Below are positions 8,163 through 60,773 of a DNA stretch of 64,000 bases, one piece after another. Within the stretch, counting starts at the first letter, position 1; each line of letters starts with the position of its first letter. A model generated the notes under the pieces. The model saw only the letters and a program-made list of their open reading frames with translations, ran no database searches and was not told the origin of the DNA. Origin of the DNA: Plumapathes pennacea (Eukaryota; Cnidaria; Anthozoa; Antipatharia; Myriopathidae); NCBI GenBank assembly GCA_964036295.1, contig OZ038466.1, forward strand, positions 13,798,001 through 13,862,000, read 5' to 3'. A program made the translations under genes and the position numbers.

Positions 8163-8650
8163 AAGGGTAACCAGCATGTAACTGTTGCTGTTGTTTTTCA
8201 TTTTTTAAGTATTACCATTATTTTCTACTAATAATACCAGTTACCAGATAAATATTACTTGTTATTTACAACATCTGGCCCATTTCTAAAATATTATAAT
8301 ATATACCTTGTTTAAATTTTTAAAAATGTAGCATGTACGACTAATGAGTACAGGCGAACACACACAGACCAAGAAACGAGAGAATCCATCTTCAACATTA
8401 ATTCTCAGCATGGACTGCATATGGTACAGTAGCTTATCAATGGTAATCACTCAAACAAATGAGTGAACACTCTTTGAGAGACTAATAGAACTAATTACTA
8501 AAATAATATCACATCTTAGTGATAACCTATGAAGCATCTCTGAAATAATATATTCTATACTTTGTTTAACTAACCAGCATGTAACTGTTGCTGTTGTTTT
8601 TCATTTTTTAAGTATTACCATTATTTTCTACTAATAATACCAGTTACCAA
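8163..8650 (-). repeat. Repeat family A, two partial units, reverse orientation
   Basis: The segment from about 8163 to 8245 is repeated almost exactly at 8570-8650 (AACCAGCATGTAACTG to CCAGTTACC). It matches, in reverse orientation, the family-A units at 13745-14401 and 32124-33760. The piece at 8390-8490 (CAGCATGGACTGCATATGG) recurs at 60180-60262. Family A is a dispersed, locally tandem repeat with no coding potential that I can see. Confidence 0.75.
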
Positions 8651-11297: not shown

Positions 11298-11530
11298 CGT
11301 AACATCATTTTTGTAATCAGTTTTCTTAGTGGAAAATATTTAATAATAGTTTGATAAAAATAAAAATAGTTTCCTGGGTGGTTTAAACATATTCTTAGTG
11401 TATAAAGGTGGCAATTCGAGGGCAGAATGAAGCTGCTGGCTGTATTGGGTCTGACAAAGTTTCTTGGATAACTTTTATTGTTGCACTCGTGAGTCCCTCA
11501 TACCGCCCTCCTATAATTTATATATCATAC
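11298..11530 (+). repeat. Repeat family A, partial unit
   Basis: It runs from GTAACATCATTTTTGTAAT to CCCTCCTATAATTTATA and matches 13900-14110 and 33560-33770 in the same orientation. It abuts the broken 3' end of the BEL fragment. The rest up to 11735 shows no gene. Confidence 0.7.
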
Positions 11531-11735
11531 TTTGTGAAAACTTGGTGGGCATGGACAGGAACAACATGACCTAAGGCCCATACAGTAGGATTAACAGACG
11601 ACTGCACGAACAGGGCATTTACTCTGTAGTACTCAAATGCAGTACGAGTAAGCTGGTTAAGTTGCTCTTCTGTAATCCCAAATCTATTAAATAGGGAAAC
11701 TCAATCTCGGAGCCTCTGCCCTAGATATGCAAATA

Positions 11736-13263
11736 TCAGAACTGTTTGCCTCTCATGCGTGGAAGGTACTCTCTCAGATCTCTGTATGAGCCATTGATTA
11801 TGGCTTCTGTTTCTATTCCATTGAGAAAGTCTTCATCAATATCATAAACTTTGCCAATATCCATTTTTTTTACCTCTTCAACAAGTTTGTTATAAGTGAG
11901 GAGTTTAGGCACTCTGCAGCCTGGAATCACAGACATACTAGTTCTTCCCCTGTCCTTTGACTTCATTGAAAGAGCAAGTCGGACGCTTTGTTATTTACGT
12001 TTGCCCATGACACCACTGGAGTAGAAAGTTTGCAATACTCCTTTTGACATTATCTTCAGACTTTTCATAAACATTAATGTTTTTCTTATAACATTTGGAA
12101 ACTACAGATGTTGTTAACTTTTTGTTGCTTAAGACATAGTCTGCTAATGTTTCTACTCTACACCTTTTCTGAAGGGTGTCAAACATCCCATCAAAAGCAG
12201 GTGTTACATTTTTCTCAGTTGCTCCATGAATTTTTGCAATACATGACAATGTCTCATGCCTTCTCTTTGTTGCTGTTCTAAATGGCAAATTTGATTCACC
12301 ATTTACCAATGAGGTAGGTCTTCTTGACCTTGGTTCACACAACTGCACTGTTGGCTAGAAAGAAAAACAAAGTTCATATCTGTAAATGTTTAACAACATA
12401 AATTACTAAATCTGGTTAACAAATGCCAAATATTGCAATATTAATAGCAAAGGGTAGTGTTGTTATAACAAACATAATACTAAAATGAAAATGCAGGACC
12501 TGTAAGCATTGCAGGACCTGCTTGGAAAATATTTCTTAATACTGTCACTCACCAGTGTTCTCAATTCCATGTAATAAGGTAGTCGTTGTTTCCCTTGCTC
12601 TTGCAAGCTACATGGCATGTACAAAGGAAACAAATCAATGTATAGTAATTTAAATTCCTAATATGTTACACATACCAAATACTTAGTACTGCTGATGATG
12701 TAGCAATATTTAATAAACATGTAAATGCAATCTTTTATGTTATACAATTAAAAGTCGTGGAATTATTATTGTGTTTGACACTACATTCATGTCTTTAATA
12801 CACTTCCCTGTAATGTTGATCCAACAACATTGCCACAGAACCTGACAGTTAAAGAGAAGAAAGGAGGTTTGCATTATTCGGTGAACTTACATCACACAGG
12901 ATAATTTTTTACAGATTATGAATTATACCTATATGCCAAGTTGATAACAAATCAGTGTTGGGATAATACGTTGTAGCACATTTCATGAATTATAACCTGG
13001 TACACTACATAGAACAAGTTAAAATTAATCAATTACTGGTATTAATTTATAACATGTAAATTATGTACAGAACGATTATAAACACCAGCATATACTGTAC
13101 AGTAAGCATCCGTATAAAAGCTCACCCTTCCTTGTAGCCTCTCGATTTTTTTGTATTCGCTCTTTAGCTTCCGATTCTCTTGAAGAACTTGGTCCCTTGC
13201 CTCCGAACGAGCTTTCATGAACGCAGCGACATCGAAGCGACGCGTTTTGGTGCGTGGCATCAT
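11736..13263 (-). pseudogene. Multi-exon coiled-coil protein, degenerate, function unknown
   Basis: Minus-strand exon-like pieces: 13263-13126 (basic start, then a coiled coil ending in KKIERLQGR before donor GTGAGC); 12607-12553 (acceptor CATGTAG, donor GTGAGT); 12354 to about 12010 (acceptor TTTCTAG); then 11990-11736. The last part continues the protein only after a frame change near 12010 and an in-frame TAA (about 11990) in the segment GVMGKRK. It ends LLTYNKL...INGSYRDLREYLPR. Not all joins keep phase. The tail resembles a multicopy cnidarian protein I recall but cannot name, probably transposon-encoded. The intervening 12360-13040 is AT-rich intron-like DNA. Confidence 0.5.
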
Positions 13264-13744
13264 AGATCAGAGTCTGTAACTCGAGCAGAAAAACACAAAA
13301 ACCTGTTATGTTTGCCGTTCCCCTGTCGGTGCATCGAAAAGAAATCGAGAAAACAAAAATCATACTATTCTTACCGAGGTGTCCAAGTTTCTGCTCCCGC
13401 TAAATTCATTCCGATTGATGGCAATCCACAAAAACCTATCCGGGCAGAAAACCTGGGATTTTGAGTAAACAAAGAAGCCGCCATTTTTTCATGCGAAGCA
13501 GCCTCAAATTTGGCCTTCGCGTGGAAAAAAACCTACCCATGCTTGGTATCAAAATGAAGATGAAAACATCGTCTTTCCCGCGCAGATTTCAGACCACTCG
13601 CACAAACTATCCCAGCAACGCTATGGGCCTTTGGACGCGAGCCCCAAAGTCAACACCAGTCCCCCAATAAAATAGCCCGGCTATCGACACCATGTTTGGC
13701 GACAGACAATATGCCACAAATTTGACTCTCTTGACCCAGCGTGT
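13264..13744. other. 5' flank of the coiled-coil pseudogene, no gene recognised
   Basis: Upstream DNA of the minus-strand coiled-coil gene, with moderate GC content. It is open in some frames but has no recognisable motif. Confidence 0.3.
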
Positions 13745-14401
13745 AATAATTATTTCGTAACTGGTATTATTAGTAGAAAATAATGGTAATACTTAAAAAT
13801 TGAAAAACAACAGCAACAGTTACATGTTAGTTAGTTAAATAAAGTATACAATATATTATTTCAGAGAAGCGTCATAGGTTATGAATAAGATGTAATATCA
13901 TTTTAGTAATTAGTTTTATTATTGGAAAATATTTAATAATAGTTAGAAAAAAATTAGAATAGTTTCTTGGGTGGTTTAAACATTCTTAGCGCATAAAGGT
14001 GGCAAGTGGAGGGCAGTATGAAGTTGCTGGCTGTGTTGGGTCTGGCAAATTTTCTTGGATAACTTTTATTGTTGGTCTCGTAAGTCCCTGCTACCAACCT
14101 TCTATAGTTTATAAGTTCGAATGTACTCATTAGTCATACGTGCTACATTTTTAAAATTTAAAGAAAGTATATATTGTAATATTTTGTAAATGGGCCAGAT
14201 ATAATTAATAACAAGTAATATTTATTAAGTAACTGGTATTATTAGTAGAAAATAATGGTAATACTTAAAAAATAAGAAGCAACAGCAACAGTTACATGTT
14301 GGTAAGATAAATATACAATAAACTATTTCAGAGATGTGTCAGCTTATGGATAATATGTAACATCATTTTTGTAATTAGTTTTATTAGTGGAAAATAATTA
14401 A
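13745..14401 (+). repeat. Repeat family A, left part of an interrupted copy
   Basis: One full unit (AACTGGTATTATTAG at 13756 to CTACCAACC at 14100), then a second unit starting near 14235. The second unit stops at 14401 in GTGGAAAATAATTAA. It resumes at 32124 with TTAATAATAGTTTG, exactly as the uninterrupted units read (AAAATATTTAATAATAG). This marks the integration point of the 17.7-kb element. Confidence 0.85.
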
Positions 14402-14696
14402 GGTCTGGGTAAAGGCTGTTGAGTCAAAAATAAAGCAATCCTCAAACACTCTTCTTCCATTCGAATGTATGTAAAGAGAAGTATTACGATGTAGATCTTT
14501 CCACATTTGTTAGCATCGGCGGGAAATCAGCTGTATTCCTCGTTGCCAAGGACACTTTCGTCTCGTAATGTCAGCGGTTATTGTGGCCCTTGCCTGTTTA
14601 CGAGCGAGAAGTTCCCACTTTCCTCGATTCCATGTGAATGTGACATGCGTACTGATCGCACACTGCACCCGTGCCCCAAGGCGGGAAAATACAAAG

Positions 14697-15987
14697 ATGG
14701 TGGGAGGTAAGTGAAGTGTTGTTTTTGTTGTGATATATTCCATCTTTAAAGTTGCATGAAGTATAACAAGCTGTTTCTTTCCCTCAAAACACAGCTAAAG
14801 AACTATACCTGGCAAAATTCCAAGCCATTGTTTTAGAGAAAACGTAAGTACGGTACCCTACCGATACTCGTTATTTACAGTAAAACACACCGCAATACTT
14901 GAGTTCAGAATCTCACTGTACCTTGTTGAATCTTTGTAGAGGAGAAGAGGTCCCAAAAGCCCTGTCAACGCTGTTGACAGGGGCAAAAGATAAAGCAGAG
15001 GTAGGTGACTGTCGCGCATCTGACTCAGATGCACGACAGTTTATCTACCGAACTTTCTTCGGGTTTCTGTCGGTGAGTGTTCACATTTTCTGTTCTTCTG
15101 CTCGAGACAATATTCATGGCAGTGGATATAGCTTTTAACACTGTGATGTCTATGAAACGTGAACTGTGATTGCGAGCGAGCCAAGGTTTTATGGAATCTT
15201 TTAATTTATCGACGTCAAAAATATTGTCGCGGACATCTCTTGCTGCCAAAATAGTCCAAATTGCGACTGGCTCAGTGCTTTTGCATGCGCTATTACTTTC
15301 GCTAAGCGTATACATGTGCAGACCAGTGAATCTGTATAACTTGTATGTGAACGGTGGCGGAACGTAGTCAGACTGCTCAGGTGGTCATTTCTTGTTTCAC
15401 AATTCGGCTTGAAAATGAGAAGTTTTCACTAATTTGACGGAGCCCAAGTTCGCGATAAAGTTATCTTAAACTTTCACATGTGAAGATGTTAATTTTTAGA
15501 ACTAGAGAAATTCTGGTATTTCATCGATATCTATGTAGGAGTAAACTCTTAGACGATGCGACATTTCGACAGAAAGCTGACGCGAACAAACGGAAATGCG
15601 TCACGATAAAATGTCATGATAAATTTTACCAGTATGTTCTAGGCAAGAGCATTATGGGCTGCCGGTTCTAGGCTAATAGTACGAGTCTAACATACTGTCT
15701 AACTTCTTCTTTAGCGGGAGAGAGGAGTAAGACGGGGTGCATCCCTGATATACCCCCAGGAAGTTCTTGACGTCATCAGGGGAATCTACCCTGATGGCGT
15801 CAAGAACTATCCCCCAAAAGCGGGAAAGGTAGGGTTACTTTTTTGTCCACTTTGTGACATTACTTTCTTGTTGAAATTTGCATAAAGTTGTATGTCATAT
15901 ACTGAGTTATGTGCAACTTATTTTCAGAGGAAAAGGTTCCATGAGGTGTCCCTCCCAGAGTTAATCCGGGAGTACAAGAATGTTTGA
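14697..15987 (+). CDS. Small five-exon gene, 97-aa protein of unknown function
   Basis: Exons: 14697-14706 (MVG plus one base), 14795-14843, 14940-15000, 15715-15828, 15928-15987 (TGA). Every intron has a good GT donor (GTAAGT, GTAAGT, GTAGGT, GTAGGG) and an AG acceptor. All four joins keep phase, and the 294-nt total has no internal stop. The protein is short and charged: a helical N-terminus (KELYLAKFQAIVLEKTG), a middle QEVLDVIRGIYPDG and a basic then acidic C-terminus (PKAGKRKRFHE...REYKNV). I do not recognise the family. Its start is 295 bp inside the left TIR of the 17.7-kb element, as expected for an element-encoded gene. Unlike its neighbours it shows no damage. The first exon is so short that the true start could be elsewhere. 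Confidence 0.6.
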
Positions 15988-16797
15988 AATTCTGGTAAGT
16001 ATAAAGCCCTGCACAAATGGACCCAACAACACCCAACATTGTTGACAGTTGTTGGCAGTAGTGTGCAAATGATTCCAACAAGTCCTAACAATGTTGGGCA
16101 ATACGCTGGTAACAAAATGTATTCTGGAACAACTGATACCGAAGTGACATTTTTGCCATTTTTTGGTTAACAACATGGACACCATTGTATGTGGCTATTC
16201 CTGCTCAAATACAGCCAACAACGTTGGGCTTTGCTTCAGCGATCACGAAACAAAAGAAATGTTGGGACTTGTTGGCTCGAACCTAAAACTTGACTACCAT
16301 GGCCTACAAAAAGGGAAGTGTGAAATATTAATACCTGTCTCTTTTTTGTTTTGTTTTTCAGGCACAAAAAGATTAATAAAGAGCCCTTTAATACAATTTG
16401 GCTTGAGTGACCCACACCCTTATCCTACACAGTTTCAAAAATACAGTATCACTTGACAATGTTTCACAAGAAATCTTTGTATAACCTTCAAGCGTTCTAA
16501 CAGTGTTTGACGCTATATAGACTTTGTGTTGAGAGGACAATCTCTATGCGAAATTCTTTGATGGTTTGTGGCTCCGCACCTGGAAAACTGGTATCTACCA
16601 CCCTCTCTGACTGGTCCAGCAATCCTTACAACAGCATTCTCAGGGGCTGCTTGTGCAATAGGCAGTTGAGTGTCAGCAACCCTTGCTTTTCCTCTTTGTT
16701 CAATGAACTGCAATCTGTCATTCTCATCGATGACATCCTTTCTCCATATGTGTGCAAAATCTTCTGACAGGCACTGTACCTCTTTCTAAGCATTTAA

Positions 16798-17770
16798 GAG
16801 GCAGTCTCTGTAAAAACCACCCGGCGGATTTCGGGTCAAAAATGGATTTCGCTAATTTTCTCCCTACAAGTCAACATTACTATGGAACTCACAAAAGTGA
16901 AACCCTTTCGTCTGAATTATTTCCGTGACTTCCGAAATTGGACAAAATGACCTTGACCCCGTGTCAGCCGTTTTAGCGCCTGTTGAATTCTGAAAATCAG
17001 GCAAGTTCGATGAATCGCTTTGTCGAAAGTATAAGATCCCGAGCTGTAAAATTTAAATCATCAGGAAGTTTGGAGTCCTTGCTTTACACAGATGAGTTCA
17101 AAATCTCATTGCCTCTAATATCTGCCGAATACGAGACCGAATGTTTGACCTACCCAAGGCTTTGTTTCACCAGGACCACTTTTGACCATTTTGAAAATGG
17201 ATTTAGCAAAAAGTGGGAAACTTTATTCCGAAGCACTGCCCATCAAATTAAAGTTTAAGGTTCCATCTGTAACATTCTGCAGTAAAACCGTGTGGCATCG
17301 ATCTGCTTCACTGTGCGGTGAGCTTCTGAAGTCACTAACTTCCCACGTTTTGCCGTAAATTCGCCTGCTGGTCGAATGCCACATTTGGCGATGTTTATTG
17401 CTGTAAATTGTTCCTAGTCAGCTCCAAAATGTTTTAAACACCTGCTAAGGCCTGCAGAGTGGATATTTGATAGATTTTTGCGAGTTTTGAGCTAGCATCA
17501 GCGAGTGCGAACTTGCCCGGCCGACGTGTCAAAGGTCACGCACAATACAATTTGCCAGTCGCCGCTACAAATGGTGAAATTTAATAAACAAACACTCACT
17601 TGCAGAATATACATCCAGAAATATATCATTAGTGGTTTTGCTGCACCTGGTTTCAAAGAAACGTATACTCTCTCCACACTCTCGTTTACTGTGATTCTTG
17701 TTATGAATAATTTCTGTGTTTGTGTTGTGATTGACAAGGGAGTGCCAAACCCAATGAGACATGCCTATTT
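16798..17770 (+). repeat. Left inverted arm of the 8-kb element
   Basis: Starts GAGGCAGTCTCTG and ends near CATGCCTATTTT. It pairs with 23811-24785 over its full length. It contains short ORFs mirrored in the other arm, so these are not independent genes. Confidence 0.85.
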
Positions 17771-19285
17771 TTAGATCGAAAGAATAACATCAATTGAAAA
17801 ATTTCTTTTACCAAACACAGAGTATTGAAAATTGCGATGTAACTTTTCCGGATAATTATGAGTGCAATTTCAAACTGTTTTCTTTTGAGAAAAAAGGGCT
17901 CCTCTTGTGGTACTTCAAGGGGAATTACAGATGTTATCAAACTGTTGGATTGCAAGGCGGACGTAAGCAAACATCTGGCTTCGTATAATTTCTCAAATGA
18001 AGTGCTGACAGAGTACCAGCTGATCCTGGCCAGGGCTGGTCTGTTTGGTTTGACCGAGGCTCAAATCAGGTGTATGTGGGTTTGCGCGTGCCACCGGCAT
18101 AATCTTGGGAAGTTTTGGACACGATCAAGAACAACGTGTCAGTACCCTGGTCATAAAGCGCCAAAAGGCAGACTAAAAAGAGTGAGAAGTAGCAGCCACG
18201 TTGTCACTCTACAAATGGCAAAGGATGTATTCCGAATCCACGGAACCGTCCTCAAACTTGGATCTCGTAAGTCGCCAGTACATGTGTTTATAAATGAATG
18301 TGCGTAGTGTCCCCCATTCACAGCGCTGAAAAAAAAAACAAAAAAAACGGCACGGTAGTCTTGTTTACCAATGCAGAGATTGCCTTCCCAGGTAGTCACG
18401 GCACCCCTAAAATTTTGTGCACCAGCACATCAATAAAGTTTGGACTGCCACGCTTAGACGCGAAACTAAGAGGTGCAGTGCCCGCAAAAAGTCGGCACGA
18501 TGTTAACTTTTGGGATGCCGTGTATTTCTTACAAGCGAGTGTAAACGGTGTTCAAAATTGACCAGGAAGGAGTATATATATAATTATTGTTGTTGTCATA
18601 ATTACTACTACAATTGCTACTTTTACTGATTATTCAGATGCCACACCGTTGTGTTATTCGTTATGCGCATTGAACATTTGCCATTAGACAAACACGAAAG
18701 GGCCAGAAGTTAGTTTCGACGTCATCTTGAAAGTGCTGCGAACTTTTATGTTTACTGAAACTGTTTACTGCAACCTTTTCCAGCCATATGTAACAGCTGT
18801 TGCAAGAGCCACAAGACTGTGGTAGAAGAAGAGATTTGGTTGAAGGAGTCAGGAGTTGACATTGCGGATTCTCGCACCCGGTATGGTAAAAATAAAGACT
18901 GTTAGATTGCCATGCATGAAATAATATATAGCCTGGACCAGGTAACTGCCCCGTAAGATCCCGCACAAGCCGTGATTCAAAATGGTCGCTGCTTATTTTT
19001 AGACTACACAAGTCCCACAAATGCCTCAGAGTGATTCCGATTTCCTTGGACTTAACAGGACTTTTCCAACGCTGGGTCCCAACGTTAAACCAACCAGTTT
19101 GTTGCCGCAATTTCCAAGACAAATTAACATGGCAGAGCGCAAAGCTCTGTCAGTTCCGACACGAAAGAGCACATTGCGTGTTTGTTTGACAGCTGTCAAC
19201 TTATGAGCGAGTAATTGGTTTGTGGATTAAAACAGGACATTGAACGGCTTTTGTTCATTGTTATAAGCGAAAACATTTTTTAAAG

Positions 19286-19287
<2 letters not shown>

Positions 19288-19346
<59 letters not shown>
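19288..19346. repeat. (TA)n microsatellite
   Basis: An uninterrupted TA run within the long intron-like gap of the 8-kb element's gene. Confidence 0.95.
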
Positions 19347-19348
<2 letters not shown>

Positions 19349-19460
19349 TGCGTTCTACGTGTTGTAAACACTCGTCACCCTGAGAGCGGGCTGTGACGCT
19401 TGACACTATTCCGTAGCGGGAAACTGGTTCAAAAATAAATAAATAAATAAATTTAAAAAG

Positions 19461-19470
19461 TATATATATA

Positions 19471-19509
<39 letters not shown>
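19461..19509. repeat. (TA)n microsatellite, imperfect
   Basis: A second TA run with a few extra As, 115 bp after the first. Confidence 0.9.
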
Positions 19510-19512
<3 letters not shown>

Positions 19513-22500
19513 ACAGTCGAGTCCCAGCTGTCTGCTTCCCCTCGTCCTCTTGCGGTTTGAACGCTACAGTTTCCACCGGCCTTTTCAATCACAAAGTCGT
19601 ATAATAAATATCTAAATAGACATTTCTCTAGAGGCCACCCGTGATCTCGACAACAGAAAAAGGTTGCATGACGAGATTCCATGAATGATTTATAACAGAA
19701 GAGAGACCTTTCTTTACTAGAAAACGGAATAAAACGGACAGTTTTAACATAACCTTGCCCTAGCCGCTCGATTCAAAACCTCCAGATACAAATCCGCAAA
19801 ACATTACCATATATAAATATAATGCTTTCGACTTTTCACTTGTTGTCATTGTCAGAATAGGAGGATCTTTGTTTACATCTATTCCCCGTTAGCATAAATA
19901 ACATTTCAAGCTACAAACAAACGGGCGAAAGAACATGCCACAGTAATAACTGAAAACTTGAATGTTACACGTTGAATACTTTATACGAGAAAACTGATAA
20001 AATAACATTAAAACCTCGATTATTACCTTTAGAGATTATAGTATAGTTTTCGTTATTTTCAGTAACGTTACCGTTCACTATAATCGATAATTAACATGTA
20101 ATCTAATTTATCGTACTGAACAGTGACACTACTGAAACACAGAAGGAAACGGAAGCGTCGCAAAGTCCAGTCTCCATTGACGAGCGATCTATCTGTCACC
20201 AGTAAAGGGTGGACTCCAGGTGCGTGGCGGTACAGCAGAGCGGCTTGTTACTCATCAGACGAATCTCCCGAACCTTTACCACGAACTGATGACGCCGACA
20301 TCACGTTACAAGTGTTCAATGATACAATGAATAAATTGTCACAGCATGCTTCGTACCAGAAAACGGACGAGCTAACATTCAGGCTTAACACCACATGGAG
20401 TCAAGCATCGGAACAAGAGAAACAGCTATGCGTGGAAGAGACAACAGAAGCATGCCGAGTTATCTGTAGCATAATTGTCCCCAAAGATCCTGACAGGCTG
20501 TTCGACGCTATGCTGCGGCCACCCGCATCTGATGATAACATAAGCGCAAATTTGGTAGCTGTCATGACCGCACACAAAGTGGCACCAACCAAGCAACTGA
20601 AGACACAGATCCTCAGCATATATGCAAATCAATACTCCACAAACCAGCTGATCAAGATGCACGAGAAGTTCGAGAAGATAACAGAATGGCAAGTGAAGCA
20701 AGCTAGAAAACATGCACGGGCAGTTGGACCAGGAGCAAGCGTTGAAAAGTTGCCACGTCATCGCATTTCCTTGGATGTGACGAAGCTAAGTCATTTCCTT
20801 GAATTTACTGATCGCCCGTACTTCTTTCAAGATGTGGCATATGGCACGCGGACGCTCAAGTTAGAAGACGGCGAAAAGCTAACGATGCCTGATGTCATAC
20901 GCACTGTCACGCGATCCACAATAATTGCCCAGTATTTACAGTACTGCATTGATGAGGACTTTTCGCCCCTAAGCAGAGCGACTTTGTACCGAATATTGTG
21001 TGTGCGAGAGGCATCACAGCGTACAAGCCTAAAGGGTCTGGACAACACAGCAGCTGATGGTTCACAAGTGTTTGAGACAGCTATGAAAATTGTAGATGAA
21101 CTCCAGGAAGTGGGCGCTCTGAAGGAATGGGCCGATGAAACCTGACAGGAGCTACGTGATGCTAAGCGGTACCTCAAGACCACATACAGAGAGCATTGCA
21201 AGCTTTCACAAAGCCAGTGTGCTGATCACTGCAGAGACTATGCCCTCAGCGATCCAGCCAACGAAGAGCTGCAGGAGACCTGTAATCACCATCACAGCGA
21301 AATTTGCAACAGCTGTGAAATAGTCAAAGACGTCTTTGAAAACAATACGATGAGGATTCGTACATCAAACGGCTGTACCAAGGAGCGAGAAGGGGACCTA
21401 CTGCATGACCTGAAGCAAGCCAAAGAAGTTTTTTTTTGCATGGAAGGCACACATTCTTCGTTCAGCCAACCAAGAAGCCGCCAAGCAGCATGTGCTGGAC
21501 AACCTGGACGTCAAGTCAGTGCTCATACTTGTCGACTGGGCCATGAAGTTCTTGCAGATGAAATACCGAGAGAAGCAAACTGATTGGTTCGGAAAGCGTG
21601 GCCTAAGTTGGCACATTTCAAGTGTTGTTTCAAAGAGTAAAGCTGGTTTCATTGAAGTCGTGGCTTACGCCCACCTTTTCAACAGCTGTATCCAGGACTG
21701 GTTTGCTGTGGCAAGCATCATAGAGCACATACTGTCGTACATCAAGAAGGAGCAACCATCAGTTGAAAGAGTCTTCCTGCGCTCAGACGAAGCTGGATGC
21801 TATCACAACCACCAGTTAATTGCAGCTATGCAGGGGATTGGTGCGAGACATGGTGTTAAAGTGGAACGGTACGACTTCTCAGAGCCTCAGCAGGGAAAAG
21901 ACATGTGTGATCGCATTCTGTGTCCAATGAAAGCGGCGATCAAGCGTTACTACAACGAGGGCCATGACATCCAAACTGCCTCAGACATGCGAGGAGCCCT
22001 TTACGAACGACCAGTGAAAGGAACCACAGCTGCGGTGGCCCATGTTGACCAGAGCAGGAAAGAGATGGTGGTGAAGAAGATCCCAGGATTCAGCTCGTTC
22101 CACAACTATCAACTTGAAGACAACGGCATTCGAGTTAACAAAGCATTCCGCGTCGGCAAAGGGAAACTCATTCGGTATGAGAACATTGTAACCAATCCAC
22201 AAGGTCTGACATCACTCGTGATAGAAGATGACAAGGGCTTTTTCCAGCCATCATCTCGCAGACAGCTGGAACAAAACAGCCAGAGAAATGAAGTACTTGA
22301 TGAAACGTCTGATGTTGTACAGTACCAGTGTCCCGAAGTTGCATGCACGCAGTCATTCAGTCGATTGGAAGATTTGGAAGCTCATCAAGACGTTGGTGCC
22401 CACTCCATCAACTCTGGGGAAAGCATTTATGACACATTGAAGAGAGACTGGGTGAAGAAATTCTCCACAATTTCCATATCAGGAGAAAACCAGAACACTG

Positions 22501-23309
22501 CACTGGTAGCCAGATACGAGTCTACGCAAACCGTCAGTGAGCATTGCCCCATGGGCTGGGCATTACACAAGCCTCGACCGGCCCCAACTAGGTACTCGCC
22601 ACAGGTCAAACAATACCTGAAGAATTGTTTCGATATGGGAGAAAAAACCGGCCGCAAATCAGATCCCCTGCAAGTCGCAACCGATATGAGGAATGCCAGA
22701 ACCGAGAGTGGCGAAAGATTATTCAACAGAGGGGAATGGCTGAGTAAGTCACAGATTCAGAGTTTCTTTTCCCGGCTAGCAGCTGCTCGTCGAAAACGAA
22801 AGAATGGCGTTGAAGATGGCGAAAATGATGAAGAAATCGAGAGATGCAACGATGATGATTTGGCCTATGAACAAATGGAGAACGAACAAGAAATGTTGAA
22901 AAGCGTCGTCCAGGAACTTTCTCTCAAGCACCCCATTAAATATGGTTCTATCGATCTTTGCACCCATTACCGCAAGCATAAGCTGAAGAGCTTGAGCGTG
23001 AAAGTTCTGAAAGAGATGTGCTTACACTTTGACATTTCGTTCAAGTCAAGAGACAGAAAGGCCGATCTGATTAGAAAAATCGAACAGGAAGTTTCAACAT
23101 GTTCATGTTTCCGAGAGTGATCTATAACAGAAAACATACAAACATAAAAGTTGGTGATCGCGGTGATCGGTGAAAAAAAAAGACCGTGTAGTACATACGC
23201 ATGCCAAAGTTTAACTCAAGACCATAAACTGCGTACGAGAAACTTACTGTCATCAGCAAAATGCCCATAATTTTTTTTCTGCGTAATATACCCAGTTTTG
23301 TTTTTGGGT

Positions 23310-23720
23310 AAGACCTGGTTTATACGTCGCACAATCGTCGAAGTTAATTCACACGAATTTAATTCACATTAACTTCGTCGATTAGACGACGTAAATGTCG
23401 TTCCAATTCATACGACGAATTTAATGCAGACGAATTTAATTCCATGTGTGAATCCTCCATTCTCAGTGCTATCGACTAAAATAATTTGTGTAATATTTAT
23501 GCATTTCATTCAATCGATGCGTCGTTGCTGCGACGTCTAAATCGAACACGCATTTCAGACGTTGTATCCGTGTGGCCATGACGGATGTGTGTTGGACGAA
23601 TTTAATTCCTCGGACGAATACAATTCGATTTAGACGTCGCCGTAACATCGAATTTAATTGCTGGAATTAAATTCGTGTGAATTAAATTCGACGATTGTGC
23701 GTCGTATAAACCAGGCCTTA
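23310..23720. mobile_element. MITE with TIRs and ACGAATTTAATTC motif array
   Basis: The left end reads AAGACCTGGTTTATACG and the right end is its near-perfect complement (ATAAACCAGGCCTT). The interior holds many copies of GACGAATTTAATTC in both orientations. It lies between the transposase gene and the right arm of the 8-kb element, so it arrived after, or travels with, that element. No ORF. Confidence 0.75.
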
Positions 23721-23810
23721 GTGTGATCTCTCAAAAGTGCCAAGTAGAAAACGACAAAATTGGGGTCTAGCTGTTTTGTTGATGCAATTACATGATGTAA
23801 CTGCATTGTT

Positions 23811-24785
23811 AAAATAGGCATGTCTCATTGTGTTAGACACTCCCTTGTCAATCAGTAATTAACACAGAAATTATTCATGACAAGAATCACAGTCAGGAAA
23901 GTGTGGAGAGAGAGTTTCCGTTTCTTTGAAACCAGGTGCAGCAAAACCACTAATGATGTATTTCCGGATGTATATTCTGCAAGTGAGTGTTTGTTTATTA
24001 AATTTCACCGTTTGTAGCGGCGACTGGCAAATTGTGTTGTGTGTGACCTTTGGCACGCCGGCCGCGCGAGTTCGCACTCGCAGATGTTAGCTCAAAACTC
24101 GCAAAAATCTATCAAATATCCACTCTGCAGGCTTTAGCAGGTGTTTGAAACACTTTGGAGCTACCCGGGAAAAATTTACAGCGATTAACATCGCCAAGTG
24201 CGGCATTCGACCAGCAGGCGAATTTACGGCAAAACGTGCGAAGTCAGTGAACTTCAGAAGCTCACCGCACAGTGAAGCAGATCGATGCCACACGGTTTTA
24301 CTGCAGAATGTTGTAGGTGGAACCTTAAACTTTAATTTGATGGGCAGTGCTTCGGAATAAAGTTTCCCACTTTTTGCCAAATCCATTTTCAAAATGGTCA
24401 AAAGTGGTCCTGGTGAAACACAGCCTTGGGTAGGTCGAACATTCGGTCTCGTATTCGGCAGATGTTAGAGGCAATGAGATTTTGAACTCACCTGTGTAAA
24501 GCAAGGACTCCAAACTTCCTGATGATTCAAATTTTAAAGCTCGGGATCTTATACTTTTCACAAAGCGACTCATCGAACTTGCCTGATTTTCAGAATTCAA
24601 CAGGTGCCAAAACGGCTGACAAGGGGTCAAGGTCATTTTGTCCAATTTCGGAAGTCACGGAAATAATTCAGACGAAAGGGTTTCACTTTTGTGAGTTCCA
24701 TAGTAATGTTGACTTGTAGGGAGAAAATTAGCGAAATCCATTTGTGACCCGAAAGTCGCCGGGTGGTTTTTACAGAGACTGCCTC
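23811..24785 (-). repeat. Right inverted arm of the 8-kb element
   Basis: Inverted copy of 16798-17770. Ends CAGAGACTGCCTC, followed by TTAA. Confidence 0.85.
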
Positions 24786-24789
24786 TTAA

Positions 24790-25371
24790 AACATGTAAAT
24801 GCCAGTGAATACCGTAGTACCCTGGTTATAAGCCCTGGGCTTTTAAACTTTGAAATGGGTTTTGGGTGGGCTTATAACAAAGGAGATGGGGGTGGTGACA
24901 TAAGCAGTACAATGAAAATGTTTCAAAATAAGCTGACATTCAGTTCAGACACATGTGATAAACAATTTCAGCGGTACAACTAGAATACAATAGAATAACA
25001 GGTAGCTTGTCTTATAAGCAAAATTGGGGCTTATAACCAGCTGGATTTTACAGCACTACAAATTGTATGAAAGTACATTTGGCGCAGTTTTTGCATGACT
25101 CTTGAAAGTAATTGCTTTGATTTTGGTTTGGTTTTTTGCTACACATTCTAATTGGTGGACAGTAAGAGTTCGACCAATCAGAATGCGTAGCAAAACCAAA
25201 ACCAAAGCAGTTACTTTCGACAGTCATGCAAAAACTGCTCCAAACCAGTAATAATAATTTGTCATTGTATGATTGTCGCCATAAAAATAAACAATCTTTC
25301 CCAATTTAATAATACTTATCCAAACGCATGAACTAATCAGGCACTTATACAGACATTTGCCAGTTTGTTAC
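24790..25371. other. Intron of the Mutator-like gene with a hairpin MITE
   Basis: Intron DNA between exons 4 and 5 of the minus-strand transposase. It holds a TTATAAGCCC-rich stretch (24826-25040) and the hairpin described separately. No exon is recognised. Confidence 0.5.
25080..25242. repeat. Hairpin (foldback MITE)
   Basis: Arms TGGCGCAGTTTTTGCATGAC and GTCATGCAAAAACTGCTCCA continue inward through a TTTTGGTTTGG / CCAAAACCAAA pair to a short loop near 25165. About 163 bp. Confidence 0.8.
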
Positions 25372-27072
25372 CTTCGGGTTTGCTCAGCAAGTCTCTCCTT
25401 CTTTCTCTGGGTTCTTTTTGTCTTGACATGATCTGTTTTGTGGGCTTCCAGCTTCTTGAACTACAATTTTGAAAAAAAATACCAGCACTATTATTTAACA
25501 AACCAAATCCATGGCCATACCCCCATAATTTGTCCCTTCTTACACAACTTTGAAAAACATGTAACCGAGTGTAATACAGGTACAAATGGATGTGTTACTT
25601 CAGTGCTCTGCAAACATATCAGTCACCTTATTACACCTCATGGTATGCAAAGGCAACTAAACAAACATTTGCTGGCACGTATTAGTTGCATGCACTGCAG
25701 ACAACAATCGCATCACCACAGTGTGCATCTGATAACTGTCGTGCATAGGATGTAAACATCTTGATATGTATTTACAATATGATTTGTAAAGGATTCAATA
25801 AAATACTTACTTGATCTCTGAGTCCAGCAACCATTGGTAATCCCATTGCATCATATAGTTCAATTTCCCAATGATAATAAGGACCATAGTTTCTGTAGGA
25901 CCAGCTCATGTTGCCTTGTAACAGCCCTATGTTTGTTGACACTTCGTAGTGTAGCTGATGTAGATTAACATCTTTTGGTCGAAACTTTGACAGAACACTA
26001 AAACGAGACTCTGGCAGATTTGAGTGTCCCCTGCCCATCTCAGGGTCAATCACTTGAGAGGCCTTTTTCGCTAGCCTTTGGCACTCAATTTCATACAGCA
26101 GGGCATGAAGGGGACAAGTCACAGCAGCTCTTGTCCTGTACTCACTTCCGTCGCACTCCAGAGGGCCAACATCATCATCACTCTCATCACTTTCTTCATC
26201 AGAGTCAATGTTGCTATCTGCAAGCACTTCAGTGGTACTAGAGGTTTTTCTAATTCTGGAACCCTGATCTTTTGCCTTTGAGCACATCCCACAAGAGCAG
26301 GATTTCTGAGGATGAAAACCGCATTCCTCTGTTTCTCCTTCCTCATTGGTCCAAGAATGTATGTCCCTAGCATGGTACTTCCCCAGTTTCATCATACGCT
26401 CAGCGTACTCATTGGGGTCATTACCACATTGTTTAAGGACACAAAAATGGTTTTTCTTAGCAGATGAGCATAAAAGCATCTGTGAAGCAACCACAGGATT
26501 TTGAATGCCTTGTGCTACAGTGACACTTGACAGACTTGAACTGACTTGAGGTCTGGAAATTCCTTCAAATGCTTTTGAAGAAATCCTTGATCTACAATTC
26601 TCTTAGATTTATACTCCTTCAGGTTGTTAGAATGTGACCTCCCCACGTGTCCCCCACACAACATTACACGACTGAGATCTCCATCAGGAAAAACTGACCT
26701 AAAACAACTCCCAGAAGAATCAGCATCTTGCCAATTGATTTCGACATGCATTCCCTCCTCTTTGGCCTTGGTGAAACACAGATGAGCCAAGTGCCCTTCT
26801 GCAGCTTTGGATGTCCCTCCCCACAAATCCACATCACATATGTTGTTTGATCCCCTCATGCACAAATGGCCATAAAACAATAAAGCATTGCAAATAAAAT
26901 CAATGACAACAAAACTTGCACACTGACTGTGGAAGCCACGGATTAACCAGCAACTATCAGAAGTGGTAACTGCTCATTTCCAGCTGCCTAAAACATTGTT
27001 TTCCTTCCTCCTCATATTGTCTTTTGCATCCTCACACGCTTTGTCAAGGATAGCTTTGACATGAGGATAAGC

Positions 27073-29705
27073 AAATTCTATTACATTAGTACAATGAATA
27101 GAGACACGCGGGGTCCCGGGAGAGGAACTTTTGTTGTGCATTTATATGGAAAAGATATTATGGCCGAGTCAGTTTGCACATGACGGATCCAAGAGCTCCC
27201 TTTATTTTTCTTGCCCTCTTTTCTTCTAATTTCGGTCAAACAGATATTCACGAAAAAGTGTATTATAATAATTGAGAGAAAACAATTATCAAAGGCCCCG
27301 TAGGAATATTCTTCGTTTGCAACAACCCAGTTTTCATAGCTCCTGACTCATGCCGGGTATGATGTTTCATACGGAATAATATTTTCAATGAGTGATTTGC
27401 TTTTGCCTTGAGTGATTGTTTTTGCCGGGAGCATTTTGAACTTGCTTTCCAATGCACGTGACAGTACTTGTGTGACGCTTGCTATACAACCTGGCAACCT
27501 TGTTGAGTGAATTTTCAAGCTGACATGTTTTGTGGAGGAACTGTGTTGTCATTTTGTAATGGGATTGACTGGGGAATACCCGACATCTTAAGTAGCTGTA
27601 AGACAGCGTAATAGCCTTATCTCATCTTCCCAGCGTGTGCATCATGTTCAAGTAGCTGTAATTGAAAGCTTTTAGACTTATCTCTGCAGCACATTAAAAC
27701 ATGACACTTCCCATGATGAAATTACTTCGTATGAAAAAGCCATCTCAGACGTTACGCATCCTACATGTACAAGTCTGATCACTAATATGTTCAAGACTGC
27801 TATGCATTAAGCTTTAACGCAAAATTCTGGGTCGATACGAAATTAATCTCTATCAGAAGCTGCAGACGTTTGAATACCGTGACAACAAAGGCGTGCATCA
27901 CGCTTGTGGAGCGAACATTACGGCTTGGATAGTCAGATATCAACCTTGAGCTTTTGAAGACTTCGAGGTATTCAGTGACAAATATTCTCGATGTAATCGC
28001 CTGCCGGTCTTTCCTGCATTTGTTAAAGCGGTGTGAGTGAAAGCTAAGTAGCTGATGATTCGGGATTCCCCGTTCTATGACATTATGCTCGTGACATTTC
28101 ATTGACAGATCGTGTATCTTAATCTCGCGTGATATTTGCCTCAAACCTATTAGTAATTCAGTATCCTCAGACAATAAACAAAGAACCTTTACTGCACGCA
28201 AAACGAAGTTAAACGCCGACTGTTCGTATACACCGCGCGTTACACAAAGCCGCAGAGTTTTTGACAAAGGGAGACGCTCTGACCACAGGGAAAAGTTCAA
28301 GTTTTATCAAGTTTCGACACGTCTTCTACTACTTATTCAATGTTCTTTCACACAAATATTGCTCAGAACACATACATTGGTTGAAGCGGTATCTATAATC
28401 GAGCATTTGCAAAACACAACCCTTCGTACTTTACGGGGGTCCCGCTGGTAACACATCAAGCATTTGTGTACGGCTATTTTCAAGTCTTCCGATGCTTAAA
28501 AGCAATGCAAGCCAAAATCGCTCTTAAAGTATGGCTTCCGTGCATCCAGAAAGCCAACCGATGTTCAGTTTGGATGGGATAAAGCAGTAAGAAAAGCCTT
28601 CAATGGGAATGCAAGTTCCGAACAGATTACCCACGTAACTTTCACTGTATTGCAGCTCATACTGAGTTTCATATATTGTAACTGTTCCAGGTAGATCTGT
28701 CAGTAACAAAAAGTAGTCATCCGATGATTGCAAAAGAGTGGAATAGAGATTGTTCCCGGCATTCATAATTTCAACTAAATCCTCCGATAAACAAATAAAA
28801 TTTGTGGTTAAATATAAGAGCTGCTAGAGACATAGTTGCACATTGTCGCCCAGCATTATCTCCAAATATTGCAGCATTACCTTGACTGTACGGTGCAATG
28901 ATCGTTTTGTTTGGATCAACAACTGAAGGACCGGAATTTTTTTCTAGCGAAGCGAGATCTACCAACAGTCACTTTTTCCTCAGCCATTTCCCAATTTTCA
29001 AATAATAACGCCATCTGTTCCACTGATTGTTTGACCTTCATGGCACCGAGCCAAAATGTCGCAACAATAACATAAATGCACAGCAGAGTGAAATTTTGAT
29101 CCCAAACAAAAGTCAGATTTTCTGATGCTTTACTTGTATCAGCAGGAATAATACAAAGTAAAAGAATACAAAGTACCTTCAAGTTCACCTTCATACTAAA
29201 CAGTTCCATATATAATCCGCTATCAAGCGCTTGTCAAGAATCAAAGTTGCTTCACCGTCTTTACACAGGTTTTCGTCTTTGTATCCCGAGCGCCTTCGTT
29301 CAGCTTGTTCCTTCAAGTTCTCAAGGTTCTGGATATCAGATTCTTCGTACATTTCTGTACAGTTGTGCATAGCTATGCAGTTCATTGATAAGTTCATTGC
29401 ATTTGCTTTCATGGCTTTCAATATGGCTTTTGAGGCTGAACGGACCGACCCCAGCCAAAACCGCTCAATGAAATTTAGTGTGGGTCTACCGCAGCCGGCG
29501 TATGCGTTTGTAAGTAAGATGAGCGGTCCCTAAAATAATCCACAGAGCCAACTAAGGCAAGCAACTTGCTGTCTTCAAAATGGCGAAACTGCTCACCCAC
29601 CAAGTCACTTGATCATAGCGTTGTCACAAATCACATGATAATATAAACCAATCACCACATTTGTAACCCAGAAAAATAAAAAAATAAAAAAATCTCTCCA
29701 TTTTA
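27073..29705. mobile_element. 2.6-kb insertion with AAGC target duplication (repeat family B)
   Basis: It splits the main exon of the Mutator-like gene. AAGC occurs on both sides (27069-27072, 29706-29709). Removing the insert plus one AAGC rejoins the protein as TTQA|YPHVKAIL, the expected family sequence. No terminal inverted repeat is visible. Its right part (29610-29690) and an internal piece (28535-28570) recur at 38130-38300. It carries the protease-like pseudogene at 28524-28965. A minus-strand ORF at 27800-28300 and those at 28916-29421 are not recognised; the one from 29209 begins with a hydrophobic, signal-like segment. Confidence 0.65.
28524..28965 (-). pseudogene. Cysteine protease-like (C76/OTU-type) fragment
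   Basis: Minus-strand segment SQGNAAIFGDNAGRQCATMS resembles the active-site Cys block (GxQC) of viral-tegument-type or OTU-like ubiquitin proteases that I recall in cnidarian repeats. After a one-base frame change near 28770 it continues with MNAGNNLYSTLL...LQYSESYVGNLFG...IEGFSYC, which also fits that family. The His/Asp part is not seen. The family call is from memory and weak. It would act on ubiquitin-like substrates if it were ever functional. Confidence 0.35.
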
Positions 29706-30256
29706 AAGCTTGTGTCGTCACAAGCAATGAAGGCTTTGATAACCCTTTTATACCGAAACCTTTCATAAGAACATTGTAATAGCCTGCATATCCCCTTCCC
29801 CATATCAAGAAAGCAAGTGCAGTGGCAAGGGACACAGCATTTCTCTTAGTCTCCTTCACACACATCATGCTACTAGCATAGTGGATGGTGCTAGCACGGG
29901 AACAGCACTGGAATGTAATCTCTGTGGCACCACCAAGTCCAACCTCTTTGTGATGTACTGGAACCAATTTTCCTAAAGAAAAGTTATATTTTTGATGTGA
30001 TGTGTTGACATTTTACAGTGATTAATTTGGATGATTATTTTACACTGAAGAACTTACCATTGTTTCCACATATTCTACACTGCAACTTGCTGTTGATTTC
30101 ATCTAGGAAGTCCAGCATTTTGTGTGACATCGCCAGGTATAGACTCTCGTCTTGATGGCGGCGGTGAAGGTGCGTTTTTCACGCTCTGAAACAGAAACCG
30201 TTTAAAGTACCTGAACAACATTTTTCAACCAGCCGACCTGGCCTAGTTTACCCACA

Positions 30257-30946
30257 ATGAACGACGAGACAACACAGAGATTCGATACCATTGAAAAACT
30301 GATACTGGACCTGAAATCAACACTCACGTCAAAATACGAAGAAATTGACAAGCGACTGGAGAAAGTGATTGACAGCCAGAACTTTATATCAAACGAGTTT
30401 GACAAATTTAAGTCTATAACAGACAATGTCATGACAGACAACGTTGCCCTCAGAAAAGAGAATGACAAATTGAACGCCAAAGTAATTGCTCTGGAGAAAG
30501 ATATCAAAGCTGCACATGCTGCCACGAACGACCTCGAACAATATGGCCGTTGCTCAATGCTTGAAATAGCAGGAATCCCAAGAACATCAGAAGAAAACAC
30601 AGAACAACTGGTAATCAACTTATGCAGCAAGTTAAATCTCGAAGTTAGCTCCAAGGATATTGAAGCTGCACACAGAACCTCAACAAAGGAATCAGCGAAT
30701 ATAATAGTCATGTTCACCAACAGGAAATTACGAAATCTTGTTCTCTCCAAGAGGTCACACCTGAAGAAAGTCACTACCCATGATCTTGGCCTAATCTCCG
30801 AACGCAGTGCATCGAAGCTCTTTATCAATAAAAGCCTTAGTCATAGAAACAAGGAACTTTTTGGCGCTGCCTTGAAGATAAGAAAGGAGCAACATTACAA
30901 AATACATCTGGACACGAAATGGAAAGATTTTCCTGCGCCAAACTGA
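30257..30946 (+). CDS. LINE ORF1-like protein, 229 aa, uninterrupted
   Basis: Intact ORF in intron 1 of the Mutator-like gene, on the opposite strand. A long coiled coil at residues 1-90 is followed by the non-LTR ORF1 signature LEQYGRCSMLEIAGIPRTSE and an RRM-like part (NIIVMFTNRKLRNLVL...THDLGL...INKSLSHRNKELF). Such proteins bind RNA and act as chaperones in LINE retrotransposition. It closely parallels the ORF1 at 47344-47844. No endonuclease or reverse transcriptase follows, although LINE copies normally keep the 3' end and lose the 5' end. That makes a plain truncated LINE insertion unlikely. It may be an internally deleted copy or a captured gene. Confidence 0.65.
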   Translation: MNDETTQRFDTIEKLILDLKSTLTSKYEEIDKRLEKVIDSQNFISNEFDKFKSITDNVMTDNVALRKENDKLNAKVIALEKDIKAAHAATNDLEQYGRCSMLEIAGIPRTSEENTEQLVINLCSKLNLEVSSKDIEAAHRTSTKESANIIVMFTNRKLRNLVLSKRSHLKKVTTHDLGLISERSASKLFINKSLSHRNKELFGAALKIRKEQHYKIHLDTKWKDFPAPN

Positions 30947-31360
30947 TGATTTACATATCTCTTGAAAGATTTGAACCTAGCCTATAATGATGAATGTACA
31001 CATGGATATCAAACAGTACTGTAGTTTTCTGCGTTACCTTTGCTGCACTGGCATTCCAGCAGTCGTGTCTGTCTGCTGAGAATCACCTTGACTCGACGAC
31101 GATGGTACATACTCCATGTCAGAATCTTCCGGTTGAGTTCTTTCGAGGAAATCTGTTACTTCTTTTGATGTCTTCAGAAGTATTCGTTCGGGATCGGGAG
31201 TCCGCCATCGAAAAATTACTGACCCGTTCGGCCGTTCAGTCCTTATCACTTCCCATCCTCTGGACTCCAATTCTCCATTATCAAAAGGTAATTGGGACCC
31301 TGGGCCAGTTGCTCGGCAAGGTAGTTTCCTTTTAAGCCTTTGACTCATTTGCAGCGACAC

Positions 31361-32110
31361 AGTACAGCACAGTGAAGTAATCTAATCGATAAGTTCGTGT
31401 TGGACGCGAAGTGAAAAGAACCGCTGGTCAAGAATCTGCTGTTTCGGCGTTGCTAAGGCATGGCCATTGTGTTCGAAACCCAAACGAGTATCGAATGTTA
31501 TCTCATCGACTCGATTCTCATGATCGGCGATCTTGAGCTTCAATCGATCCCAAATGACATGACACAATATGGCGGCCACTTTGATTTTTGAATGCGTGCC
31601 ATATAACCCGTTGCACAACCCCAAACCTGTGCTGATCCGTTGTATCTGGTAAGCATTATTTCTAAGTGAGAAAGATCGGTTTGATAGTCTGGGAAGAAAT
31701 TTGGAGGGATTCACCAAATCATCCTTCCAGACAATACTGTCATTGTATACCACCGTTTCACGTACGGTGCTGTGACAATTAGCACCTGATCGTCTCATTT
31801 ATTAATTTTTGGTCATGAAACTATCCGTTCCTTGCAGTCAGGTATACAATGGCCAAAATAAATGTTTTTATGCTTATTTTTAGTACAAAAAGAAAAATCG
31901 AAGATAGGTTACATTCCAAGAGAGCTATGCCATATTACAATTTTTAAAGCTTGTTGCCATGGCGACCAGTCACGGCTTAAAAACAAACCTATCACTTCAA
32001 CATGAACATTTCTGTAAACATCAATGATTGATGTATCGCTTATACTATAGTTAATTAGATATAGATCTTGTGCCTTTATTTTATTTGCTGTAAATTGGCC
32101 TCATTTTACC
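31361..32110. other. 5' region of the Mutator-like gene up to the right TIR
   Basis: A minus-strand ORF at 31382-31798 is open but shows no recognisable motif. The rest is AT-rich and ends in the right TIR of the 17.7-kb element. It is probably promoter and 5' UTR of the minus-strand transposase. Confidence 0.35.
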
Positions 32111-32410
32111 CTTTACCCAGACCTTAATAATAGTTTGATAAAAATAAAATTAGTTTCCTGGGTGGTTTAAACATATTCTTAGTGTATAAAGGTGGCAAGT
32201 CGAGGGCAGAATGAAGCTGCTGGTTGTGTTGGGTCTGGCAAAGTTTCTTTCTTTATTATTTTAGAAATGGACCAGATGTTATAAATAACAAGTAACATTT
32301 ATTTAGTAACTGGTATTATTAGTAGAAAATAATGGTAAAACTTAAAAAATGAAAAACAACAGCAACAGTTACATGTTGGTAGGTTAAACAAAGTATACAT
32401 ACATCTTATT

Positions 32411-32539
32411 CGATGGTTTAGCGCGTAATACGGGCCGGTATTTTACGAGTTGCTCGTATTTTTCCGAGCCCCGCCGCGGGGCGAGGAAAAATGCGAGTAA
32501 CGAGTAAAATGCCGGCCCGTATTACGCGCTAAATCATCG
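32411..32539. repeat. Long GC-rich hairpin
   Basis: Arms of about 62 bp begin CGATGGTTTAGCGCGTAATA and end TATTACGCGCTAAATCATCG, meeting at GCCCCGCCGCGGGGC. Only a few mismatches. It immediately precedes the TIR element 32549-33520. Confidence 0.9.
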
Positions 32540-32548
32540 AATGAGGGA

Positions 32549-33520
32549 TTTATTATATGACTGTGACGTAGTTTTACCTTTATATAAAATATATTTCAGC
32601 AAACATAAAACAGAGACTTCGAGCAAAACTGTTTTCATTCAATCCCAGGCAAAATGTACGCACACTCATTTACACAAAGATTCACTTACAGCTTCCAATC
32701 CGGTCATCGATTTAAAAATCTTGACAGAGAAAATTAAAGAAGTTATGCCACCAAATGATCGAAGTTCAATTCAGGTTAAATGTTCAAAGATAAATGCGCT
32801 GGAGACGAAAATGCTTGCTTCGACAGAATAAATATTCAGCGAACAAACGTGCTTCGAGCGGTTGAAATCGATCACTTCGCTTAAACTTTAACCATTTTTG
32901 TTCTTCAATAGCAAGCAGCTTTGTACTCAAAACAGGGTTTTTATTTTCTCGGAGTAGTTAAGGGATAAACACAAGAACAGAGCCAGCGAATGTGTACGTT
33001 GAAGAATCTGAAACTTTCATAACACAACTAGGATTTTTACCGCCGACACGTTGTCAAGTTATAGATTATTAACAACTCACCGATTTCCTGCCTGGTTGTA
33101 GAAAGTTTAAGACCCCTTCCAGCAAAGGAACCACTCAAACAGTGTTCGTACACGGCGAAAATCATTTTGCAGTGTTTACAGTGACGGCATCGTGCGGAAA
33201 ACTTTACGGAGTCAGAACTGCCGTTTGTCCATGGCGATTGTTCGCTTTCCACCAACTGAACTGAACAAATGAACTTGACAAATTATCCAGTAACAGTTTC
33301 TTTCGATGGAAGGGTCTTGTATCTGAAAAGTCATAGACTTTCGTTGCACCGTTTTACCTTGCACTCAGAAATATTTTTGATTCATTTGTGATACGCGCGC
33401 GTCTAAACCGGTCAAACCGGTTTTCTACAGTGTAATACGGATTTGAAGTGTAATACGCTCCCGTACCGGCACTCCGTTGCGACCTTATATGGTAAAACTA
33501 CGTCACAGTCATATAATAAA
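32549..33520. mobile_element. ~970-bp TIR element inside family A
   Basis: Ends TTTATTATATGACTGTGACG and its complement, about 30 bp of TIR with AGTTTTACC shared. A minus-strand ORF at 33255-33037 has a CRHCKHC motif but is not recognised. It may form one unit with the adjoining hairpin. Confidence 0.65.
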
Positions 33521-33765
33521 ATATATTATTTCAGAGATGCGTCATAGGCTATGAATAAGATGTAATATCATTTTAGTAGTTAGTTTTATTAGTGGAAAAT
33601 ATTTAATAATAGTTAGAAAAAATTAGAATAGTGGTTTAAACATATTCTTAGTGTACAAAGGTGGCAAGTCGAGGGCAGTATGAAGCTGCTGGCTGTGTTG
33701 GGTCTGAAAAATTTTCTTGGATAACTTTTGTTGGACTCGTAAGTCCCTGCTACCAACCTCCTATA

Positions 33766-33782
33766 ATAATGATAATAATAAC

Positions 33783-47844: not shown

Positions 47845-47883
47845 AGATACTGTAACTATGATAAGTATGACTTTATTTGATAC

Positions 47884-50800: not shown

Positions 50801-50928
50801 ATTATGGTAAATTCAATATAAGATTTCAAGGACCAAAGATTTGGAACTCCATTGCAGAACATGTCAAATCTCCTTCTCTCAGGCAATTTAAGAAAAATCT
50901 CAAAAACGAATTTCTTAAATCATATTGA
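47884..50928 (+). pseudogene. LINE ORF2: endonuclease and reverse transcriptase
   Basis: The AP-like endonuclease spans 47884-48760 (HCNIRSLSANF, IGISETKF, YRHPNS, IMGDFNIDFL). The RT follows: GVPQGSVLGPILFLLYIND (motifs 3-4), FADDANLF (catalytic YADD-type box), KYLGIFID, and the LINE C-terminus PRARTNYGKFNIRFQGPKIW. Breaks: a 16-bp tandem duplication at about 48740-48770 shifting the frame, a frame change near 49458, and a short deletion plus TAA near 49720 that removes the segment before YDKQFGF. ORF2 nicks target DNA and copies the LINE RNA in place; this copy cannot. Confidence 0.85.
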
Positions 50929-56125: not shown

Positions 56126-56330
56126 TAGTCGGGGAGCTAGACCTCAAAGTCAATATTTAACGAGTTTGTTCAACCCACCCCACAGTAAAGGTTTGATAAC
56201 GGATTCTGATAGAGTGAACCCTCCTGATTAACATTAGGTACGTTGTACTCTCGGATTGTGGTATCAGTTTTGAGTTAAGGCGATGTTTTTGTCGACGACT
56301 GGAAGTCCAGCATGGAAAAGAGGCTGATCT
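56126..56330 (+). repeat. Left TIR of the Academ-like element
   Basis: Inverted copy of 59405-59609, ending near GGAAGTCCAGCATGGAAA. Confidence 0.85.
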
Positions 56331-60700: not shown

Positions 60701-60773
60701 TGTTATTAATTTTAACTCGTGGATATACGAAGCGTAGAAACGAGTTATTGTGGGGACTCAGATACGCAAATGA

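Follow-up and report, generated by a model that had tools for sequence, protein, structure and literature searches.

We analysed a 64,000-nucleotide stretch of DNA from Plumapathes pennacea (contig OZ038466.1, positions 13,798,001 to 13,862,000), referred to hereafter as the window, and found within it a DNA transposon, element A, inserted in a unit of a repeat that we call family A. Element A is a genuine insertion flanked by a 4-bp TTAA duplication, as judged from the one insertion examined, and is very probably an inactivated cut-and-paste transposon of the Kolobok type. This placement was made from the ends of the element and from transposase motifs read by eye. It is supported by the GG..CC ends, the 4-bp TTAA and the order D - D - CGGH - Cys/His cluster - E in the transposase. 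Coordinates of all features are collected in Table 1.

The original prediction described a TTAA transposon with perfect 14-bp terminal inverted repeats (TIRs), TTAA on both sides and a readable integration site, and the sequence agreed with it on each point. The two 14-bp TIRs are exact inverted copies directly adjoined by TTAA, and similarity between the two ends halts past these 14 bp. Only two sites in the window match the TIR with at most two mismatches (0.16 expected), and two such matches were found in 1 of 100 shuffled sequences. The window contains 385 TTAA sites, for which about 0.0003 perfect 14-bp inverted pairs abutting TTAA would be expected if base use were equal; nine were observed. 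Of the nine, four pair copies of other dispersed repeats with one another (8205/8608 with 13793/14265), and one (23344/23682) falls between the long inverted ends of element B, a second element nested in element A. Another two (17248/24332 and 17581/23998) are located within those inverted ends, and the last two correspond to the termini of elements A and B. The 18-base word made of TTAA and the TIR also occurred once in each of four viral contig stretches, where the inverted 14-base partner was missing from the sequence available, and these matches were attributed to chance.

For the empty-site test, the left flank ending in TTAA was joined to the right flank past its TTAA and the product was aligned to the window. 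The joined flanks spanned the junction in four family-A units, all four of which carry TTAA at the insertion point. The unit at 11293-11465 aligned free of gaps at 163 of 173 positions (94%), showing that no sequence beyond TTAA was duplicated on insertion. The other three alignments were gapped: 273/316 (86%) for 13743-14056, 178/213 (84%) for 33516-33718 and 82% for 60705-60541. Because these alignments cross the junction with TTAA in place, element A is a real insertion of 17,722 bp with a 4-bp duplication. The earlier claim that the joined flanks restore an uninterrupted family-A unit was thus confirmed. Family-A units, the source of the empty site, are present in both orientations at 8168-8652, 11253-14401, 32124-33767 and 60471-60705.

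Coding pieces of the transposase were read by eye, and their splice borders were then checked in the printed sequence; GT or AG borders are present at most exon ends. The gene starts with an ATG about 0.8 kb inward of the right TIR. Its motifs follow the order TTSD, NWQDADSS, CGGH, a Cys/His cluster (ECGFHPQKSCSCGMC, CPLH) and GHSNLPE. The putative catalytic residues, again assigned by eye, are the D of TTSD (26956-26958), a D of NWQDADSS (26725-26727 or 26719-26721) and, as the likely E, that of GHSNLPE (26009-26011). A multi-exon transposase-like gene had been predicted for one strand, and it was recovered on the minus strand, although in a broken state. An in-frame stop codon (26974-26976) ends the stretch upstream of the catalytic part, and the reading frame is altered between 26545 and 26530 and apparently again inside exon 2. 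With these lesions the transposase gene of element A is dead.

Kolobok transposons are described as making TTAA duplications and having 5'-RR..YY-3' ends (PMC9587614; this source, PMC6004289 and PMC6446971 are cited here from excerpts). A C/DxxH motif between the second D and the last E is common to Kolobok and MuDR, and almost all Kolobok transposases, but not those of MuDR, P or hAT, have a zinc finger located after C/DxxH and before the last E (PMC9587614). Element A has a TTAA-specific 4-bp target-site duplication (TSD; one insertion), GG..CC termini of the RR..YY form and a DDE transposase in which, from residues chosen by eye, CGGH lies between the second D and the last E. The Cys/His-rich region formed by ECGFHPQKSCSCGMC and CPLH stands between CGGH and the last E; it was read by eye, and neither a profile match nor a usable structure accompanies it. 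Element A shares with the described Kolobok lineages (Kol0, E, H, D, P and others) the 4-bp TTAA duplication, the RR..YY ends and C/DxxH and, as read by eye, a Cys/His cluster before the last E that may correspond to their zinc finger. Several of these lineages carry accessory genes (PMC9587614), and by analogy the candidate small gene of element A, which is encoded on the plus strand close to the left end, may count as further support. The suggestion of a "Kolobok-like" element in the original prediction is supported by the ends, the 4-bp TTAA and the transposase motifs.

If element A behaved as such an element, its DDE transposase, encoded on the minus strand, would have bound the short TIRs and excised the element by the expected catalysis. 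The excised DNA would have been joined to a 4-bp staggered cut at TTAA, leaving TTAA on both sides, and in this way could have landed in a family-A unit. Later, element B would have entered another TTAA within element A, a piece resembling LINE (long interspersed nuclear element) ORF1 (first open reading frame, ORF) would have ended up in intron 1, and the reading frame of the transposase would have decayed. This order of events is the one that we consider probable.

Several results weigh against the Kolobok placement. Transposase families were not matched when seven pieces were searched in Pfam at E≤10, when four pieces were searched in NCBIfam, or when pieces were compared to PDB sequences, and viral contigs yielded no confirmed relative of the transposase. 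THAP, the usual domain of Kolobok transposases according to PMC6004289 although the excerpts of PMC9587614 do not list it as a criterion, was not found in the seven pieces searched in Pfam at E≤10. The single-sequence AlphaFold model of the catalytic piece was unusable (pLDDT, the predicted confidence score, 35.7). The placement rests on the ends and on motifs assigned by eye, no Kolobok reference or profile served as a positive control in these searches, and element A is known from one copy. Three matches to phage records at E=1 were taken as chance.

The absence of a match to a transposase family among the pieces searched, together with the possibly methyl-CpG-binding domain (MBD)-like N-terminus and the lack of THAP, could instead point to a new TTAA superfamily that is neither Kolobok, piggyBac nor Sola3. 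We regard this as improbable: THAP apart, the testable published features of Kolobok ends and motif order (PMC9587614, in excerpt) are all present, and the silence of the libraries is uninformative because their content of Kolobok models was not checked.

A Mutator-like element (MULE) with an unusual 4-bp TTAA preference is somewhat less probable still. The original prediction read the protein as Mutator-like, and the CxxH after the second D is indeed common to MuDR and Kolobok (PMC9587614). However, MULEs duplicate 8-11 bp (PMC6446971), whereas the 4-bp duplication here is secure because the empty site can be read; according to PMC9587614, MuDR lacks a zinc finger of the kind that the Cys/His cluster between the second and third catalytic residues may form, and Pfam showed no MULE domain among the pieces searched. 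The resemblance to Mutator is explained by the signature common to the two groups, and the unnamed lineage proposed as an alternative to a Kolobok-like one is not needed, if still conceivable. Finally, element A is very unlikely to be a non-autonomous or composite unit that captured an unrelated transposase gene and was moved by another enzyme, as the single copy, short TIRs (14 bp) and broken genes might suggest, given that the ATG lies so close inside the right TIR and that the motifs fit a type of enzyme known to duplicate TTAA and to act on elements with RR..YY ends.

Compared with individual TTAA elements, the Kolobok-type element A showed both likenesses and differences. Xenopus Kolobok and T2-MITE share the TTAA target and RR terminal bases, and their full-length copies of 6.8-13.9 kb were counted as a likeness; they have THAP and AG ends (PMC6004289), whereas element A has GG ends and no THAP was found. 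KolobokP has long terminal direct repeats that element A does not: a repeat scan (≥60 nt) and self-BLAST showed no direct repeat of its two ends. Mutator-like elements share a DDE transposase with C/DxxH and differ in TSD length. piggyBac makes the same TTAA duplication, but RR..YY ends are described as unlike piggyBac (PMC9587614); the ends here are GG..CC and no piggyBac domain was matched in Pfam among the pieces searched. Elsewhere in the window, a 527-bp element (6373-6907) resembling a miniature inverted-repeat transposable element (MITE) is bordered by TTAA on each side, has inverted ends AGGAGAACTGAAG and internal inverted arms, and fits the TTAA and AGGRR signature of T2-MITE/Kolobok (PMC6004289, in excerpt).

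Table 1. Features of element A and of the sequences inserted in it (window positions; a dot marks features given no strand).
Feature	Position	Strand	Remarks
Left TTAA target-site duplication	14398..14401	.	
Element A, Kolobok-type DNA transposon (probable)	14402..32123	- (transposase strand)	17,722 bp
Left TIR of element A	14402..14415	+	GGTCTGGGTAAAGG
Candidate small gene	14697..15987	+	tentative; 5 exons, intact 97-residue frame
Small gene exons	14697-14706, 14795-14843, 14940-15000, 15715-15828, 15928-15987	+	GT/AG borders
Left TTAA of nested element B	16794..16797	.	
Nested element B	16798..24785	+	7,988 bp; ends GAGGCAGTCTCTGTAAAAACCACCCGGCG
DDE-like gene of element B, broken	20120..23120	+	ORFs 20120-21145, 21146-21583, 21414-23120
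Right TTAA of nested element B	24786..24789	.	
Transposase exon 6	25372..25460	-	basic C-terminal stretch; AG/GT borders
Transposase exon 5	25811..26530	-	after frame change; Cys/His cluster and GHSNLPE; GT donor
Transposase catalytic part	26545..26973	-	TTSD, NWQDADSS, CGGH from 26658; roles assigned by eye
Upstream coding stretch	26974..27084	-	in-frame stop at end
Transposase exon 3	29722..29972	-	3' border (~29722) approximate
Transposase exon 2	30058..30183	-	CxxC near end; frame seems to shift within
LINE ORF1-like stretch in intron 1 of transposase	30215..30946	+	Baculo_FP domain, E 1.3e-6
Transposase exon 1	31038..31348	-	ATG; possibly MBD-like; GT donor
Right TIR of element A	32110..32123	-	
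Right TTAA target-site duplication	32124..32127	.	

Element B is the largest insert in element A, and its gene differs from the transposase of element A. Its inverted ends are about 980 bp long and 93.7% identical (16793-17771 and 23811-24790, TTAA included). Its TTAA is treated as a border and not as a proven duplication because no empty site was available. The protein of element B has DDE-like motifs by eye, and matches to a C2H2 zinc finger and to HeH/LEM fell below the Pfam cut-offs. Sola3 elements also make TTAA duplications. Relatives of element B were not found in viral contigs. The LINE ORF1-like stretch in intron 1 of the transposase shares 36% identity with 47269-47784. That segment belongs to a LINE at 47269-50928, where ORFs read by eye as endonuclease and reverse transcriptase follow at 47881-50928.

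Without element B (7,988 bp plus one TTAA) and the LINE ORF1-like stretch of 732 bp, element A measures about 9.0 kb. This does not agree with the 7 kb or so predicted originally, and the largest insert proved to be a second TTAA element. No further insertion could be delimited in 27085-29720, and a scan for paired TIRs and TSDs inside 24791-32123 (16-base arms, ≤2 mismatches, TSD ≥4, spacing 200-3500 bases) returned no pairs.

A small multi-exon gene near the left end was also predicted, and it was borne out in part: the five exons join, with GT/AG borders, into an intact frame of 97 residues, but its length does not exceed that of shuffled sequence. A spliced chain of at least 294 nt was obtained in 76 of 200 shuffles. 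The best real chain in that control (366 nt, start at 15029) was not the reported model and was itself matched by 35 of 200 shuffles, and two of the four acceptors of the small gene, with 7 pyrimidines each, fell below the control rule of 8 in 12. We therefore treat the gene as tentative. When eight proteins, this one among them, were queried against the window, it gave an ungapped match of 52 residues to 57879-58034 (32.0 bits; best of 400 shuffled queries, 26.2). The match spans three of the model's splice junctions and runs through a stop codon near its end; the target is another degraded gene. Homology of the small protein to 57879-58034, based on this alignment, is possible. The target region lies among degraded reading frames (56860-58692) enclosed by inverted 175-nt arms (90%) at 56168-59574.

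The small protein has no cysteines, whereas KolX of the Kol0 lineage is described as having a P2X7 ballast domain with 7 conserved cysteines (PMC9587614). P2X7 was not matched among PDB chains at E≤10, and KolX elsewhere in element A was not sought separately. Similarly, Pfam gave no nuclease or helicase match such as the second genes of other Kolobok lineages would give. In viral contigs 40 stretches matched the pattern of the small protein and none was confirmed. A search of genome contigs confirmed 1 of 25 candidates (35% identity, query residues 30-81, E 5e-5), which was read as chance because the ORFs listed around it in that planctomycete contig are mostly arginine-rich and none is transposase-like by eye.

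The original prediction also placed an MBD in the transposase. Sequence comparison gave no match for exon 1, either to Pfam or to an MBD among PDB sequences (both at E≤10); weak support came from predicted structure. The single-sequence model of exon 1, run with no control model, was of low confidence (pLDDT 57.5), and in a Foldseek search of the PDB none of 499 matches reached E≤0.001. Eight MBD chains were among the best 50 of those 499, all with E≥0.7: MeCP2 (three), MBD4 (two), MBD6, SETDB2 and MBD2. The highest probability among the matches listed was that of MBD4 (0.77; root-mean-square deviation 1.7 Å over 45 alignment columns). These model comparisons are suggestive of an MBD-like fold, which exon 1 may perhaps adopt. 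Among the papers listed in searches of the open-licence literature, no title or abstract opening shows an MBD with Kolobok or a transposase; Repbase lies outside that scope. The CpG observed/expected ratios of element A's two 400-bp ends (0.80 and 0.75) were nothing special relative to the window (0.75).

As a Kolobok-type copy, element A is ordinary and of a kind already known; the possible fusion of an MBD with a Kolobok transposase is the more interesting lead. It is conceivable, though we think it doubtful, that element A represents a Kolobok lineage in which a methyl-CpG-binding-like domain replaces THAP at the N-terminus and a small partner gene other than KolX is transcribed towards the transposase. 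Such a transposon could read the CpG methylation of its host, finding its own methylated ends or choosing its targets. Should the MBD-like exon prove genuine and belong to this transposase, the enzyme would be tied directly to DNA methylation, a route, open to testing, through which a transposon could sense or exploit the methylation of its host.

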